DNA of 27,906 nt, from the IMG/VR virus record IMGVR_UViG_3300032116_001062, positions 1 through 27,906 of that record. One strand, 5' to 3'. The translations under genes were made by a program, and so were the position numbers. Of the stretch, positions 22,036 to 27,906 are shown one piece after another. This stretch comes from a virus. The first letter of the stretch is position 1. Each line of letters opens with the position of its first letter. A model generated the notes under the pieces. It worked only from the letters and a program-made list of their open reading frames with translations. It did not search any database and was not told the DNA's origin.

Positions 22036-22227
22036 ATGCTTACTAATGAAGAAAAAATAGATTTTATTATTAATCGCATTAATAATATAGATGCTCAAAT
22101 TAAGTCTTTTATAGATAATGCAGAACTCTGCGCTGGAAAGTATGTGATAGAAGAAGAGGTTTTAACCTGTAATATAAAAAAGAAGGCTCTAGCTCAGGAG
22201 TTAGACCTATTGACTAATCAAGGTTAA
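22036..22227 (+). CDS. Small coiled-coil protein, paralog of the next gene
   Basis: A 63-residue, mostly helical protein beginning MLTNEEKIDFIINRINN. The start at 22036 is preferred because aggaga (22026-22031) sits right before it; a longer reading from 21997 would overlap the adhesin and lack such a site. Residues 2-25 align by eye with the beginning of the next gene product (LTNEEK, then hydrophobic residues at matching spacing). Two cysteines are present. Position after the adhesins suggests a tail-fiber accessory or chaperone, but nothing shows this directly. Confidence 0.7.
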   Translation: MLTNEEKIDFIINRINNIDAQIKSFIDNAELCAGKYVIEEEVLTCNIKKKALAQELDLLTNQG

Positions 22228-22250
22228 ATGATATAATTATGAAAGGAGGT
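22210..22250 (+). promoter_or_regulatory. Strong promoter and perfect ribosome binding site before the small-protein cassette
   Basis: TTGACT (22210-22215) and TATAAT (22232-22237) are separated by 16 bp, matching the housekeeping consensus at 11 of 12 positions. The -35 overlaps the end of the upstream gene. Transcription should start near 22244, next to a full AAGGAGGT ribosome binding site (22243-22250) six bases from the ATG. Confidence 0.75.
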
Positions 22251-22255
22251 ATACC

Positions 22256-22486
22256 ATGGCTATTGAATTAACAAATGAAGAGAAGCTAAACATTGTAAAC
22301 CAGCATATTAAATCTGTAGATTACAACATTTACGGATTACAACTGGATTTACTGGAAGCTCAAGCAGTTGATGCACCAGATCAAACACAGATCTCTTCTC
22401 TAAATAGCAGAATTTCTTCTGCTAATGCACGAAGAGTAGTACTTGTCACAGAAAGAAATTCTTTGACACCTCAATCAGAAGAGTAA
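22256..22486 (+). CDS. Small coiled-coil protein, paralog of the previous gene
   Basis: A 76-residue helical protein that begins MAIELTNEEKLNIVNQHIKS. Its N-terminal helix resembles that of the preceding 63-residue protein, indicating a tandem duplication. A polar hinge (VDAPDQTQ, ~41-48) separates two helices, suggesting a helical hairpin. It has the best ribosome binding site in the window apart from the tube gene, and a near-consensus promoter, so strong expression is expected. That level fits a structural or scaffolding role better than a regulatory one. Not recognised as a named family. Confidence 0.75.
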   Translation: MAIELTNEEKLNIVNQHIKSVDYNIYGLQLDLLEAQAVDAPDQTQISSLNSRISSANARRVVLVTERNSLTPQSEE

Positions 22487-22698: not shown

Positions 22699-23044
22699 TT
22701 TCCCTTCAGGTATCGCTGTTAAAACAGATAAAGATACATATTGGATTAAAGACGGCAAGAGGTATAAACTGATTTCAGATAGGGCCGCCCAGTCTTGGTG
22801 CTTTACTACGGTATTAGCAACTGAGGCGGCATTATCAGGAATTAAGCTTGTGGGTAAATTAGGCTTTCGAGACGGCACCTTGATTAAGAGTGTTGCAGAT
22901 GGTAAAATGTATCTAGTATCACAGAATAAACTGAGACACATTGTAGACCCAGATTCGTTTAATCGATATGGTCTTGATAGGTCAAAAATGATCGAGGTAT
23001 CTGAAAAAGAAATCTCGGCACATGATTTAGGAGAAAATATATAA
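22637..23044 (+). CDS. Small protein with surface-repeat-like modules
   Basis: A 135-residue protein whose C-terminal ~110 residues carry two modules of a repeat seen in bacterial surface and phage tail proteins: a Tyr-hydrophobic strand, a DGKRY or NKLRH turn, then a residue pattern ending in F-x-x-YG (YWIKDGKRYKLISD; YLVSQNKLRHIVDPDSFNRYG). The start is uncertain. ATG 22637 lies 62 nt inside the previous gene with a poor ribosome binding site, and TTG 22646 is the only nearby alternative; the conserved part begins near 22700. It overlaps the next gene by one base (TAATG). Probably a virion surface component. Confidence 0.65.
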   Translation: MINLKRKRPTQSTLAISQPTNFPSGIAVKTDKDTYWIKDGKRYKLISDRAAQSWCFTTVLATEAALSGIKLVGKLGFRDGTLIKSVADGKMYLVSQNKLRHIVDPDSFNRYGLDRSKMIEVSEKEISAHDLGENI

Positions 23045-23484
23045 TGAGTGAAACTTTTAACGATGGCGATCCAATTGATGCCACCCTGCTTCAAAAATTA
23101 AAAACAGATGTGGCAAAAGCCACAGCATTGGCGGGAAGAGCAGCAAGTGCTGGGTCTACCATTAATGTTGCTGGGGATATTATCAATAAAAGTGCAGCAG
23201 AAATTGTTACTCCTAAATTTTATGGAGGCAGGACTGAGGCAAAGATTCCTTTAAAAGCTGGAGCCTATGTTCCATTTACATGCGTTTTCCCAAAAGGATT
23301 CTTCAATAAGAAACCAATTGTTACTGTTAGTCCTTATGCGCCAGGCAAGACTAAAAATGATTGTCTAGCGTATGCCCCTCAAATTCTTTCTGTTAGTTTA
23401 GATTCAGCTGAAGGTAGAGTTAGAGTCCCATCAAATACACCTGTTGGGGACATATATATGTATTTTATAGCAGTCCAGAACTAA
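23044..23484 (+). CDS. Probable small tail fiber or receptor-contact protein
   Basis: A 146-residue protein, coupled to the previous gene by TAATG. Residues 1-60 are helical with an ATLLQKLKTDVAKATALAG stretch suited to trimerisation. The rest (~65-146) is a beta domain: IPLKAGAYVPFTCVFPKGFF, then PIVTVSPYAPG, then ILSVSLDSAEGRVRV and YMYFIAVQN. This strand pattern resembles the H-type lectin-like domains found at phage fiber tips. It closes the structural block and precedes the promoter and terminator region. The function is inferred from fold-like pattern and location. Confidence 0.6.
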   Translation: MSETFNDGDPIDATLLQKLKTDVAKATALAGRAASAGSTINVAGDIINKSAAEIVTPKFYGGRTEAKIPLKAGAYVPFTCVFPKGFFNKKPIVTVSPYAPGKTKNDCLAYAPQILSVSLDSAEGRVRVPSNTPVGDIYMYFIAVQN

Positions 23485-23488
23485 CCTA

Positions 23489-23516
23489 TTGACAACCTAG
23501 TTCTATATGCTACAAT
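23489..23516 (+). promoter_or_regulatory. Strong promoter upstream of the replication-type genes
   Basis: A perfect -35 TTGACA (23489-23494) and -10 TACAAT (23511-23516) are separated by 16 bp, five bases after the stop codon of the upstream gene. The start point would be near 23523, only a few bases before the hairpin at 23529-23553. Confidence 0.7.
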
Positions 23517-23528
23517 TTGTTAAATACC

Positions 23529-23553
23529 AAGTCACGGACTCGTGACTTTTTTT
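23529..23553 (+). terminator. Intrinsic terminator (or attenuator) just after a promoter
   Basis: The arms AAGTCACG (23529-23536) and CGTGACTT (23541-23548) form a perfect 8-bp stem around GACT, followed by a T7 run (23547-23553). It can end transcripts of the structural genes. Because a strong promoter lies directly upstream, it would also end transcripts from that promoter unless read through. Confidence 0.8.
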
Positions 23554-23567
23554 ACGTAAGGAAATAA

Positions 23568-24368
23568 ATGGCTAACGATTTAAAATGGATGCTATCTTCA
23601 GATCAGCAGTTTCCATATCAAGATGATAAGATGATTGCTCTGTGGTTTAAGGTTCTTAAATGGTTTAAGCCAGATGTAGTAGACTACCTTGGAGATACTG
23701 ACGATCAGGCATGTTACAGTAAATACACAGAAGGTCGTTCAGCAGAGTTTTTAAATTTACACAAGACAGATAGTCGTGATCTTATTGTTCCTATGATGCG
23801 TCATGAAGCAAAGGGCGCTAGAGAGTTTTATACAAAGACTCGTGAGATGTTACCAGAAGCTCAACTATTTTCTGCTCTTGGAAATCACGATGTTAGAATT
23901 TTTAATTATGTAGATGCAAAACTTCCAGATTATATTAATGAAGTAACTCCAGAAGCATTGTGGGGGCTAGACTCACTGGGATATGAATATATTTATTACG
24001 ATTCTTTACCTAAGCGGAGATTTGGAGATGTTCATGTTCATCATGGAATTTCAATTGCTGCAACTGGTTCTGTTCGTAAAGACATGGAAGATCTTCAAGT
24101 ATCATTAATTCGTGGGCACTCTCACAGAATTGCATCCCACCTTGTAACTTATGAACTAAGAAACAATGGTGAAGGTGAAACGCTTCGTGGATATGAGATT
24201 GGACATATGTGTGATGAAAAGGGTCCAGGAATGAAATATACTCAACACCACGATTGGCAAAAAGGATTTGCAATAGCACATATTGTAAATGATTATCCTC
24301 ATATTCAAATGATCCACGTTGCCCCAGATTACTCATGCGTTGTTGACGGGAAAGTCTTTGCGCTATGA
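23568..24368 (+). CDS. Calcineurin-like metallophosphoesterase
   Basis: A 266-residue enzyme predicted to hydrolyse phosphoesters with two metal ions. The metal-binding motifs are in order: SDQQ (D12, Q14), LGDTDD (D43, D46), GNHD (N106, H107), VHVHHG (H156-H159) and GHSH (H184, H186). The usual D-x-H first motif is D-x-Q here. The rest of the site is complete, so activity is likely. Substrate is unknown; related phage enzymes may act on nucleic acids or nucleotides. Ribosome binding site aagga (23558-23562) precedes ATG 23568. It is the first gene of the replication-side unit and overlaps the zinc-ribbon gene by four bases. Confidence 0.85.
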   Translation: MANDLKWMLSSDQQFPYQDDKMIALWFKVLKWFKPDVVDYLGDTDDQACYSKYTEGRSAEFLNLHKTDSRDLIVPMMRHEAKGAREFYTKTREMLPEAQLFSALGNHDVRIFNYVDAKLPDYINEVTPEALWGLDSLGYEYIYYDSLPKRRFGDVHVHHGISIAATGSVRKDMEDLQVSLIRGHSHRIASHLVTYELRNNGEGETLRGYEIGHMCDEKGPGMKYTQHHDWQKGFAIAHIVNDYPHIQMIHVAPDYSCVVDGKVFAL

Positions 24369-24553
24369 TGAAATGTCAAAAGTGTAGTGGTCGAGTATTT
24401 GTTGATAGAGTATTCTCTCAAAAATTACACACAGAATTATTTTGCATCCTTTGCGGCAAGCGTTGGATGGTCAACAAGGAGACAAGTGCATTTGGTAAAT
24501 GGCTAGAGAAAACAGACAGAGATTACGCAAAAAGTTCGTCTATTTCTTCTTAA
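24365..24553 (+). CDS. Zinc-ribbon protein
   Basis: A 62-residue protein with two CxxC knuckles (CQKC at residues 4-7 and CILC near 32-35), enough to bind one zinc ion. Such tiny ribbons usually bind nucleic acid or a partner protein. It starts inside the stop codon of the phosphoesterase gene (ATGA). The 3' end overlaps the following gene by 55 nt. An alternative ATG at 24368 would shorten it by one residue. Confidence 0.7.
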   Translation: MMKCQKCSGRVFVDRVFSQKLHTELFCILCGKRWMVNKETSAFGKWLEKTDRDYAKSSSISS

Positions 24554-24981
24554 ACGGTAAAGTACATAAAGTACTAAGACTATCAAGAGCTAAAGACGAA
24601 GTGGTTGCCTGGTCCTATGTAGATAAAAAAAGAGTTATGTATTCGTATGCCCAAGTAGATAAAAATATGGAAAGGGCATATACTGTATTAGAAGCAGGCA
24701 AAATTTTAGGCAGGCATAGGGTAACAATTGAAGAATATATTTTGCAGGGCAAAATCAAACAGCCTCAAAAAGTATATCCAATTAGTAATCCAGAAAGCAC
24801 TTGGTCTAAATACATGTTGAGCGAATCGGACATTTTGGACATTCATCAATTCATTATTGATGCTGGCCACATAAGAGATCTTCCCTCAAGGGCAGAACTG
24901 CAGGCTCTTCTCAAACACAATTTAATATTGTATACTAAGACCACTGACGGTAAATTTGTCCCTGTATGGAAGGCGGAGTAA
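24499..24981 (+). CDS. Helix-turn-helix DNA-binding protein (possible regulator)
   Basis: A 160-residue protein. Residues ~55-85 (AYTVLEAGKILGRHRVTIEE, then ILQGKIKQPQKVY) have the excisionase/MerR-type winged-helix pattern: a helix entered by V-x-EAGKILG, the turn, a recognition helix, and a G-KI wing. The N-terminal 45 residues are basic. A second helical segment (SESDILDIHQFIIDAGH) follows the HTH. The ATG lies within the zinc-ribbon gene and has only a distant purine run (aaggag, 24477-24482), so the exact start is uncertain. It may regulate this phage's own promoters or assist replication. Confidence 0.7.
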   Translation: MARENRQRLRKKFVYFFLNGKVHKVLRLSRAKDEVVAWSYVDKKRVMYSYAQVDKNMERAYTVLEAGKILGRHRVTIEEYILQGKIKQPQKVYPISNPESTWSKYMLSESDILDIHQFIIDAGHIRDLPSRAELQALLKHNLILYTKTTDGKFVPVWKAE

Positions 24982-25187: not shown

Positions 25188-25494
25188 AAAACAGCCTTAC
25201 GTTCTTATTGGGCTATATGAATCTCTTTATTTGGAAAAGTACAGCAAGAAGCCTAAGCTAAACAAGTTTAGAGAAAAGTGGGCTATGCAAGATGTTATAG
25301 ATAGTGTAGGATTTGAAAGGGCTAAACAGCTTTTGATATACTATTTCAAAACATCTAAGTACGGGCACCCACTACAATTTTTTTATTATAACTTTGATAA
25401 GATTGATAGGGTTCAGCACGACACAGAGCAGGACAAGATACACAGAAGTATTTTAAGAGAAGAAACTAAGAGAATGGTTGAGGGAGATAAATGA
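25177..25494 (+). CDS. Small protein upstream of the helicase gene; possible helicase partner
   Basis: A 105-residue, mainly helical and basic protein. The start is GTG 25177, with aagga (25163-25167) at normal distance, and an 11-nt overlap with the gene before. Its stop overlaps the helicase start (ATGA), so the two are translated as a pair. Helix-rich segments include KFREKWAMQDVIDSVGFERA and a YYFKTSKYGHPLQFFYYNFD stretch. Phages often encode a helicase loader next to their DnaB-like helicase, and such a role is possible. No loader family motif was recognised. Confidence 0.65.
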   Translation: MANEKQPYVLIGLYESLYLEKYSKKPKLNKFREKWAMQDVIDSVGFERAKQLLIYYFKTSKYGHPLQFFYYNFDKIDRVQHDTEQDKIHRSILREETKRMVEGDK

Positions 25495-26741
25495 ATACAG
25501 AGGCGGAACTAATATCTGCAGTATGCAAGAATAAAGACATAAGCACTCTTCTTGCAGATAACGTAGATGATATCTTTACATCACACCGTGACATTTGGAA
25601 CTCTTTAAAGTCATACTACTATAAATTTAAGGCTGTACCAGAAGTAGGAATCTTGGTAGAGCGCTTCAAAGACTTTGAGCCAGTTGCAACCAAAGGTGAG
25701 ACTGGTTATTATTTAGATAAACTTAAGAACGAGTATCTAACCAGTAGACTAAAATCAATTCTTATTCAATCTGGATCCGCATTAAAAGAAGATGCAGCAG
25801 CCCGTGTACTTGCAGAAATGCAGATGAAGCTTGCGTCGTTAACAAAGTTTACAAACAATGTTCGTGACGTAGATGTTATTGACCTAGAAGCAGCAGAGAA
25901 TCATTTCCTTTCAGTTAAAGAACGTTCTGCAGTTATGGGCGGAAGTCCAGGAATCCTCACAGGATTTGAAGCAATTGATGCTGCATATCCTACAGGAATG
26001 GCTCCAGGACATTTAATTGTTGCTATTGGTTGGCCAGGTCGTGGTAAGACTTGGTTTACTTCCTACCTTGCATGTAAGGCTTGGGAGCAAGGCTTCAAAC
26101 CAATGATTGTTTCTCTTGAAATGTCGCCAGAGAATATGCGTGATCGTATATATACAATGATGGGCTCTGGATTATTTAAAGCTTCTGATTTCTCAAAGGG
26201 TGATGTAGATGTTGATACATTTAAATCTTGGGGTCAGAAAAAGTTTGCTGGAAAGAATTCATTTATTCTAGTATCAAATGAGGGAACTGCAGAAGTAACA
26301 CCTGCAACTATTCAAGGAAAGATTGATCAACATAAGCCAGATCTAGTCATCCTTGATTACCATCAATTATTTAATGACAACAAGAGAAGCAACTCTGAAG
26401 TAGAGCGTAACCGCAATATCTCTCGTGAGTTTAAACTTCTAGCGGTATCAAATAACATTCCCGTAATAGATATTACCGCAGCCACAGCAGATGATATCTC
26501 AGATCAAGACAATCCTCCAATGATGAGTCAGGTTGCTTGGTCAAAGGCAATTGAGTATGATGCTGATATGGCAATGGCTATTCACAGATACCCAGGAACT
26601 AATATGATTGAAGTTGTTTCAAGAAAAAACCGTCACGGTCAAGATTTTGATTTCTATCTCGATTGGGATATTAATCGAGGTATTATTACTCCGATTTATG
26701 AAAACCTACCATCTTTAAATAATGACCCATCGAAAAATTAA
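25491..26741 (+). CDS. DnaB-like replicative helicase
   Basis: A 416-residue superfamily 4 helicase expected to unwind DNA at the phage replication fork. The N-terminal helical domain is residues ~1-100. The RecA-like core starts with a GFEAIDAAYPTGMAPGHL segment and a Walker A GWPGRGKT (~179-186). Walker B is VILDYHQL (~285-292), and a DnaB-type KNRHG motif lies near 380. Ribosome binding site gaggga precedes ATG 25491. Arginine codons are mostly CGT, as in the tube gene and unlike the tail adhesins. It sits between the possible loader and the primase gene, a common replication cluster. Confidence 0.9.
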   Translation: MNTEAELISAVCKNKDISTLLADNVDDIFTSHRDIWNSLKSYYYKFKAVPEVGILVERFKDFEPVATKGETGYYLDKLKNEYLTSRLKSILIQSGSALKEDAAARVLAEMQMKLASLTKFTNNVRDVDVIDLEAAENHFLSVKERSAVMGGSPGILTGFEAIDAAYPTGMAPGHLIVAIGWPGRGKTWFTSYLACKAWEQGFKPMIVSLEMSPENMRDRIYTMMGSGLFKASDFSKGDVDVDTFKSWGQKKFAGKNSFILVSNEGTAEVTPATIQGKIDQHKPDLVILDYHQLFNDNKRSNSEVERNRNISREFKLLAVSNNIPVIDITAATADDISDQDNPPMMSQVAWSKAIEYDADMAMAIHRYPGTNMIEVVSRKNRHGQDFDFYLDWDINRGIITPIYENLPSLNNDPSKN

Positions 26742-27024
26742 AAGGTTTCAGATTGAGGTAGAGTTTGAAGATAACTCTCAGCTAATAAGTTTACGTCCTC
26801 AATACGAAAATTTATTAACACATGACATGAGAGGAAAAGGATACGTCAGGGTACTTGACATAGACCCTGCCTTTTCGGTAGAATTTACGGGCGAGACATG
26901 GAAGTTCTTAATGAGCATTCATGGTGTTTATGTGGGAAAGAAGAAGGCATGGCAATCAGAGGGTATAACACAAGGGAAGTCGATACCACGCAGTACACGC
27001 CAGCACATATTAAATCAATCCTAA
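26722..27024 (+). CDS. Small conserved protein between helicase and primase (function unknown)
   Basis: A 100-residue protein. It overlaps the helicase gene by 20 nt and the primase gene by 76 nt, so both ends are nested in other genes. Protein-like patterns support it being real: an N-terminal beta segment (KRFQIEVEFED), a central LDIDPAFSVEFTGETWKFL stretch, and a C-terminal VYVGKKKAWQSEGITQGK segment rich in Lys and Trp. No clear ribosome binding site precedes ATG 26722. No family is recognised. The alternative is a chance open frame, less likely given its unique 207-nt stretch, which would otherwise be an unexplained gap. Confidence 0.6.
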   Translation: MTHRKIKRFQIEVEFEDNSQLISLRPQYENLLTHDMRGKGYVRVLDIDPAFSVEFTGETWKFLMSIHGVYVGKKKAWQSEGITQGKSIPRSTRQHILNQS

Positions 27025-27906
27025 AATCAATAGGGTTGGAAGTGACTGGTGAGACTAGCAATGACTTTCTATGCTACTGCCCATTTCATTCAAATAGACA
27101 CACATCAAGCTTTAGCGTAAGCCGTGAGAAAGGCGCTTTCATTTGCTTTAATCCAGCATGCGGAGAAGCAGGCACTCTTCAAGAGTTAGTTAAGCGTGTA
27201 ATGAACAAGACAGAGTTTGAAGCAATGAGATTTATATCTTCAAAGGAGGCGGAAGCCTTAGAAAACTTTGACGAGTTGCTTGCAGAGACAATGGCAGACA
27301 AACCAGTATTTGAAGAGTTTTCTAAAGAAACATTAGATAAATTACATAAAGGATTAATATCAAGCGACAAAGCAAAAGATTATTTTAAGTCTCGTGGCAT
27401 ATTATCAGAAGCATTGTCTTACTTTGAATTAGGATATTCAGAAAATATGGGCATGGTAACTGTTCCAGTTCATAGCCCAGATGGAATGGCTATAGGAATT
27501 GTTGGCAGATCTATAGAAGGTAAAGCATTTAAGAACAGTACAAATTTGCCTAAGAGCAAAACATTATTTAATATTCACCGTGCCAAAAAAATTGGAGATC
27601 AGGTAATAGTTGTAGAGTCGAGCTTTGATGCAATACGCATACATCAGGCTGGGTTTCCAAATGTTGTGGCAACACTAGGTGGGTTCTTGTCAACAGAACA
27701 ACACAATCTATTAAATAGACATTTTAATAAAATAACTATTATGACAGACAATGATGTTGCTGGCAGGGAATTAGGGTACAGCATAGCCAATAAATTAAAG
27801 TTCAAAGACCTCTTGTGGGCTTCGTACGAATATGGTAAGATATACCCTCATGGTGCAAAAGATGCTGGCGATTTAACCGACGAGGAGATAAAAGCTTGTA
27901 TTAAAA
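26949..27906 (+). CDS. DnaG-like primase, incomplete at the right edge
   Basis: The first 319 residues of a primase that makes RNA primers; the frame is open to the window end. A CHC2-type zinc-binding domain is seen as C44-x2-H47-x18-C66-x4-C71 (CPFH; CFNPAC), with an additional C42. A TOPRIM core follows: VVESSFDA (E223) and MTDNDVAG (D267, D269). The zinc region plus TOPRIM define a DnaG-type primase. ATG 26949 is preferred because it places the zinc domain at the usual distance from the N terminus and has a purine-rich aagaagg just upstream. It overlaps the small upstream gene by 76 nt. It follows the helicase, a usual replication pair. Confidence 0.9.
   Translation, partial: MAIRGYNTREVDTTQYTPAHIKSILKSIGLEVTGETSNDFLCYCPFHSNRHTSSFSVSREKGAFICFNPACGEAGTLQELVKRVMNKTEFEAMRFISSKEAEALENFDELLAETMADKPVFEEFSKETLDKLHKGLISSDKAKDYFKSRGILSEALSYFELGYSENMGMVTVPVHSPDGMAIGIVGRSIEGKAFKNSTNLPKSKTLFNIHRAKKIGDQVIVVESSFDAIRIHQAGFPNVVATLGGFLSTEQHNLLNRHFNKITIMTDNDVAGRELGYSIANKLKFKDLLWASYEYGKIYPHGAKDAGDLTDEEIKACIK

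Follow-up and report, generated by a model that had tools for sequence, protein, structure and literature searches.

A phage promoter that runs into a conserved leader hairpin, a putative transcription stop signal, ahead of the replication genes of actinobacterial phages

The Q-controlled late promoters of lambdoid phages, pR'-tR', consist of a constitutive promoter followed by a terminator; they yield a short RNA by default, and expression is controlled by readthrough. The locus that we describe here resembles them in that a phage promoter is followed by a putative terminator, with a short RNA as the predicted default product and control that would be exerted through readthrough. In the lambdoid case, however, tR' lies about 190 nt from the promoter, the genes are late genes, and both the Q protein and a pause element are defined.

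The greA leader of E. coli, GraL (PMC6829880), is likewise a leader of a few dozen nucleotides with an intrinsic terminator, whose hairpin ends most transcripts (about two thirds) and sets downstream expression. GraL's hairpin starts after about 19 nt, as against about 6 nt here; it precedes a cellular gene, with feedback by GreA, and there is no homology between the two. In vitro, a 38-bp transcription unit that joins the T7A1 promoter to lambda tR2 gave about one third termination (PMC6978380). Given these two precedents, a terminator this close to a promoter is feasible.

Short conserved motifs before start codons have been described in other actinophages: the SAS/ESAS of cluster K mycobacteriophages and cluster EF Microbacterium phages, and, in cluster EG, 18-bp inverted repeats 14–22 bp ahead of start codons, the function of both being unknown (PMC7302621). 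These motifs occur in many copies of fixed sequence per genome, whereas the element studied here is single-copy, conserved in its pairing and tied to a consensus promoter. We therefore reject an SAS/ESAS-type motif, which would be present in many near-identical copies.

Layout of the locus and the predicted promoter

The stretch of DNA that we analysed (hereafter, the window) is a virus fragment of 27,906 bases, of which one strand was read 5' to 3'. Its relevant features are as follows.

23044–23484, plus strand: last gene of the upstream tail/structural series; its stop lies 4 nt ahead of the -35
23489–23516, plus strand: sigma-70-type promoter with TTGACA, a 16-nt spacer and an extended -10, TGcTACAAT (sequence reading)
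23489–23494, plus strand: the -35 hexamer, TTGACA (sequence reading)
23507–23527, plus strand: site of a -10/+8 dyad; the window retains its left arm, ATGCTACA (the -10 itself), but has lost the right arm
23523, plus strand: predicted transcription start (A), placed by spacing only as the 7th base past the -10 hexamer
23529–23548, plus strand: leader RNA hairpin of 8 bp with loop GACT (fold, and RNA-level selection across relatives)
23547–23553, plus strand: run of seven T, the first two inside the stem; U-tract of a putative intrinsic terminator (sequence reading)
23558–23562, plus strand: ribosome-binding site AAGGA (sequence reading; AAGG or AGG at the same place in relatives)
23568–24368, plus strand: metallophosphoesterase gene, the first behind the hairpin, with its ATG at 23568 (phrog_221, PHROG E = 1.7e-53)
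24499–24981, plus strand: helix-turn-helix (HTH) protein (phrog_9440; weak HTH_17; PHROG/Pfam)
25491–26741, plus strand: DnaB-like replicative helicase (phrog_19, E = 4.2e-66)
26949–27906, plus strand: DnaG-type primase, truncated at the contig end (Toprim, CHC2 zinc finger; phrog_47, E = 5e-57)

The promoter and hairpin thus occupy the 83 bases between the tail-series gene, whose protein has no match in Pfam or PHROG, and the metallophosphoesterase gene. Behind the latter follow phrog_12850, the HTH-like protein, the DnaB helicase and the DnaG primase, so that an earlier reading of the region from sequence alone, which had placed replication genes downstream, is borne out by the PHROG assignments. 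Distant mycobacteriophage homologues of the product of 23568–24368 are annotated as metallophosphoesterase and, in some cases (Adzzy, StepMih), as recombination directionality factor.

The promoter matches the consensus hexamers at 11 of 12 positions and has an extended -10, with a spacing that falls within the 16–18 nt range. The hairpin, AAGTCACG/GACT/CGTGACTT, has the sequence characteristics of an intrinsic terminator: 8 bp, 4 of them G-C, with T7 directly after. The predicted default RNA, 23523–23553, is 31 nt long, and its fold of -10.3 kcal/mol is well below that of shuffles (z = -3.75). A search for a phage sigma factor (Sigma70_r2) found none in 20 contigs, and recognition by the host sigma factor is therefore the simpler view.

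A second consensus promoter, TTGACT-16-TATAAT, lies at 22210–22255 of the window and precedes small tail-end genes; it is followed by AAAGGAGG and an ATG at 22256, and there is no hairpin. A similar promoter is present at the corresponding place in three related contigs (G001, 67716; G002, 10547 on the minus strand; G007, 13752). More generally, the contigs L018/G002, L046/G007 and L002/G001 carry several strong promoters with an ATG about 6–9 nt past the -10 hexamer, that is, leaderless mRNAs. A leader hairpin is thus exceptional in these genomes.

Conservation of the locus and the nature of the hairpin

Taken singly, neither part of the locus stands out. The window holds 49 promoter-like sites (45.3 expected, its sequence being AT-rich) and 9 terminator-like sites (7.9 expected), both at the level of shuffles. 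We therefore scanned for their conjunction in the window and in three related contigs of 80–117 kb, taking promoter-like sites that match at least 10 of 12 positions and asking which of them have, a short way downstream, a hairpin of 7 bp or more that includes 4 G-C. Only 6 of the 195 promoter-like sites are followed by such a hairpin, and four of the six are the present locus, one per genome. In a profile search, too, each genome yields a single strong copy of the element, and no contig has more than one match to the dyad pattern described below; we accordingly reject a repeated element or regulon.

It is conservation across relatives that decides the matter, over any count of single motifs, and places the locus beyond doubt as non-chance. 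Relatives were gathered from viral contigs and cultured phages by matches to the metallophosphoesterase and to the promoter, and the DNA upstream of the gene was taken. The resulting 330 places, 211 of them distinct, come from the top 80 matches of each query or from the first 120 matches to a pattern rather than from a census, and many of the contigs are fragmentary. Among the matches listed, the promoter is present in 199 of 211 distinct upstream sequences. In these 199, the -35 is exactly TTGACA in 188, the spacer is 16 nt in 174, the TG extension is kept in 175, and the -10 reads TACAAT in 146. In 180 of the 199, the leader can form a stem of 7 bp or more that includes 3 G-C; after dinucleotide shuffling, 2.6% of the same leaders do.

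The geometry is likewise preserved. The order of promoter and then hairpin, with its spacing, is nearly invariant: the distance from the upstream stop codon to the -35 has a median of 3 nt, and the 5–95% ranges are 20–26 nt from the -10 to the loop centre and 29–33 nt from the loop centre to the ATG. The sequences of the loop and of the 5' leader, by contrast with the pairing, vary freely. The sequence-only reading had described a strong promoter running straight into a hairpin; both its coordinates and its description prove right, and the combination is conserved and above chance.

In 157 of 186 hairpin-bearing relatives, a run of at least four T comes directly behind the stem. The other 29, spread over several lineages, lack such a run, and their stems include AGGCCATGAATATTCATGGCCT, AAACTGC/GCAGTTT and GGTCATGCGAAAGCATGACC. 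The last of these is the leader hairpin of L292, which is closed by a very stable mini-hairpin, GCGAAAGC, and has no U-run.

Freshwater contigs that bear the element have metallophosphoesterases down to about 71% identical to that of the window; identity is 56–59% in Rhodococcus phages and about 42% in Streptomyces phages. The order of promoter, strong hairpin, ribosome-binding site and metallophosphoesterase recurs, with differing sequences, in Streptomyces phages that have been cultured, those of the Gilson/Comrade/Annadreamy/TunaTartare group; Comrade, Gilson, Sham and TunaTartare are among the phages with this order. The promoter is absent at the locus in the Rhodococcus phages NiceHouse, Grayson and Trina and in the Streptomyces phages Circinus, Wakanda, Faust and Ankus, while in Braelyn, Samisti12 and Bmoc a promoter is present but no clear hairpin follows it.

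As to hosts, the WhiB family is confined to Actinobacteria and their phages. A WhiB protein is found in 16 of 16 large contigs, and among 14 control genomes it was matched only in Corynebacterium; we conclude that the hosts are actinobacteria. Read from sequence, then, the arrangement is present in hundreds of lake-water actinobacterial phages and in some cultured Streptomyces phages. No relatives were found in the bacterial genomes searched, and we found no description of the arrangement in a literature search that most subscription journals lay outside.

An inverted repeat may be selected as RNA or as a DNA palindrome, and the pattern of substitutions distinguishes the two. Comparing the seven inner pairs, we find 36 kinds of stem at this one place. 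Covariation was assessed in 27 distinct gap-free windows of 22 nt; because these were chosen for having a stem, the percentage paired (97.1% of cells, against 65.9% in shuffles) is inflated, and the informative measures are how many pair types occur and how many cells are doubly changed. Cells changed on both sides number 79, compared with 21.4 in shuffles, and covariation is 0.936, compared with 0.282. Sliding the partner by 1–3 columns abolishes the pairing, the double changes and the covariation signal alike.

The departures from Watson-Crick pairing point the same way. Although the search scored G-U and A-C alike as mismatches, the hairpins contain 40 G-U pairs and 6 A-C (p = 3e-7), or 29 and 5 when only distinct cases are counted (p = 4e-5). 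A DNA palindrome would lack this bias. The excess of G-U over A-C, together with the compensatory changes, thus indicates that the hairpin is selected as plus-strand RNA and not as a protein operator, and with pairing rather than sequence kept through 36 stems we reject a DNA operator at 23529–23548.

Attenuation and its alternatives

We favour, at a probability of roughly one half, the reading that this promoter drives the replication gene series and has an intrinsic terminator built in close behind it, that is, a leader attenuator. The replication genes would then be throttled at the very start of transcription, the hairpin probably being, in most of these phages, a transcription stop signal. 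Host RNA polymerase with the housekeeping sigma factor would start near 23523, and the nascent RNA would fold the hairpin at 23529–23548 while the U-run is being transcribed. Some of the polymerases would halt at about 23550–23553 and free an RNA of about 30 nt; the remainder would continue, perhaps under regulation, into the metallophosphoesterase, HTH, helicase and primase genes. Attenuation had been one of three possibilities raised by the sequence-only reading. In its favour are the anatomy of the locus and the fact that the hairpin, together with its U-run, is conserved as RNA; the 29 of 186 hairpins without a run of four T do not fit it.

The window's leader offers no indication of how readthrough might be controlled. 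Its 45 nt fold only into the hairpin, with no alternative (antiterminator) pairing, and there is no leader peptide, since no start codon precedes 23568. Factor-dependent antitermination at the locus is possible. Upstream of the metallophosphoesterase in one relative, L229, we observed overlapping, mutually exclusive stems, TTGCGGGTA/TACCCGCAA and GAGTTGC/GCAACTT-TTTT, just past the -10; if the transcript started at a point further upstream, they would look like an antiterminator/terminator pair.

The relatives that lack a T-run, together with the short or interrupted T-runs of the Streptomyces phage versions, suggest that the hairpin may have a role that needs no termination. One such role, which we regard as a possible but less probable account of the locus, is that of a protective 5' leader hairpin. 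It would shield the replication mRNA from 5'-end-dependent decay, and the U-run would be secondary or would stop only transcripts from upstream. Protective hairpins usually leave a few unpaired nucleotides at the 5' end. The hairpin here is near the predicted 5' end (median 6 nt), and its pairing is kept, with sequence free, in the lineages without a U-run as well. The stems of those lineages tend to lie nearer the start (median 5 nt, and at most 2 nt in 11 of 29) than the stems of the main form, which are uniformly at 6–8 nt (p = 0.003). But the 6-nt unpaired stretch of the main form exceeds the usual protective length, and the retention of the U-run in 157 of 186 relatives is left unexplained. 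The literature cited in PMC3997798 offers a precedent: in E. coli, the ompA and papA mRNAs, among others, are stabilised by stem-loops at their 5' ends.

Alternatively, the hairpin might serve as an insulator that only terminates the tail operon, with polymerases from the adjacent promoter mostly passing through. Sequences near a promoter can alter termination downstream, which counts for this account. So does the lack of any other terminator between the tail stop codon and the promoter in 163 of 170 relatives examined, which makes the hairpin the only candidate stop for tail-operon transcripts; under attenuation too, the same hairpin would be the sole visible stop for transcripts coming from the tail genes. 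Although it is the sole candidate, it lies inside the new transcript. A terminator for the tail operon could equally precede the promoter, yet the order of promoter and then hairpin, and their spacing, hardly vary. Moreover, the lineages without a T-run mostly have no substitute terminator before the promoter. On balance, we consider insulation unlikely as the sole function.

Two further accounts seem improbable to us. In the first, polymerase stopped at the hairpin would stay on the DNA, slide back tens of bases and restart, so that tail traffic feeds the replication promoter. The distance from hairpin to promoter is indeed only tens of bases in practically every relative, and upstream reinitiation after intrinsic termination has been measured in vitro, at 43% with added sigma, although according to the same study an observation in vivo is still missing (PMC6978380). 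Sequence cannot tell such recycling from simple attenuation. In the second, the product would be a short stable RNA with a function of its own, either a trans-acting sRNA or a primer for DNA replication. A very short RNA, which the sequence-only reading had also raised, would follow if termination is efficient, and the hairpin RNA of about 31 nt, encoded once per genome beside the replication genes, is the predicted default product. However, the loop and 5' sequences vary freely, which makes a trans-acting role unlikely; an Rfam 15 search of the window gave nothing above any family's gathering cut-off, and a scan for origin-like repeats found none.

Least credible is an operator at 23529–23548 bound by the HTH protein or another repressor, as had also been proposed: the commonest stem, AAGTCACG/CGTGACTT, is widely shared, but stems are replaced wholesale with their pairing kept and depart towards G-U rather than A-C. 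The HTH protein itself we reject as controller, because the presence of its gene does not track that of the element. That gene is syntenic in hairpin-bearing and hairpin-less phages, and is equally present where such a hairpin is missing, in NiceHouse, Circinus, Braelyn and Bmoc. Pfam supports the HTH assignment only weakly (HTH_17, E = 0.0084, under the cut-off), while syntenic homologues in cultured phages are annotated as HTH.

A second dyad over the promoter, and what the locus may mean

A second dyad, ATGYTACA-N3..7-TGTARCAT, which was absent from the sequence-only reading, spans the -10 and the start. It is found in about 130 of the 174 relatives with a 16-nt spacer, or about three quarters. 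Its central pair is T-A in 96, C-G in 16 and discordant in 3, with about 10 paired switches on a FastTree tree of one gene, from whose history the locus may depart by recombination. In the window the dyad is degenerate, with a best score of 5/8, and it has decayed in the near relatives L002, L003, L005 and L058 as well. Across large contigs, the pattern is found in 12 of 20, with one match each, not always at the present locus.

The mismatches of this dyad show no preference for G-U (15 G-U/U-G, and 34 A-C/C-A), and the whole of its left arm precedes the start; for both reasons we reject an RNA hairpin, and the dyad would act, if at all, as DNA. It is operator-like, but with unusually variable spacing: the gap between the 8-mers is 3, 5, 6 or 7, and no fixed distance separates the half-sites. 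Comparable symmetry is seen in phage repressor operators generally and in cluster O mycobacteriophages, which have 17-bp palindromes (PMC4351075). The cluster O palindromes, however, occur in more than 30 invariant copies per genome (PMC4351075), while the dyad of these relatives has one copy, variable half-site spacing and a position always on the -10. In most relatives, it probably binds a repressor or other factor, which would be a second control of the same promoter. A reverse-strand promoter within the dyad is rejected, as TANNNT is not kept in the versions with a 7-nt gap (aligned sequences, judged by eye).

Two other features were noted next to the promoter. The Streptomyces phages carry ACCGGGCTGACCGGTTGACA (Comrade, L085, 3408–3430, and relatives), in which ACCGG is repeated about one helical turn apart and which ends at the -35; possibly it is a protein site that replaces the -10/+8 dyad. 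In the window, a 7-bp dyad, AGAACTA/TAGTTCT, flanks the -35 at 23477–23504. Near relatives keep it only in part and not consistently, and about 1% of shuffled flanks yield arms of the same length; for these reasons we reject it.

The dyad accompanies the hairpin chiefly where the hairpin has a U-run: it is present with 119 of 157 such hairpins and with 8 of the 29 that lack one (p = 1e-6, relatedness ignored). This association supports, tentatively, an extension of the attenuator reading, which we would put well below that reading itself. The two elements might form a two-step switch, in which a factor bound at the dyad holds initiation and the hairpin holds elongation until a phage or host factor permits readthrough, and which would be a widespread, undescribed module of large actinophages.

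Large phages that infect freshwater actinobacteria are numerous, yet hardly any have been cultured, and the timing of their genes is poorly understood. The locus is a precise, single-copy node between their structural and replication genes, and its recurrence in cultured Streptomyces phages makes it testable now. If the attenuator reading is true, it implies a readthrough control in actinophages that has not been described; if the hairpin is instead a 5' stabiliser, these phages would be protecting one key mRNA through structure.
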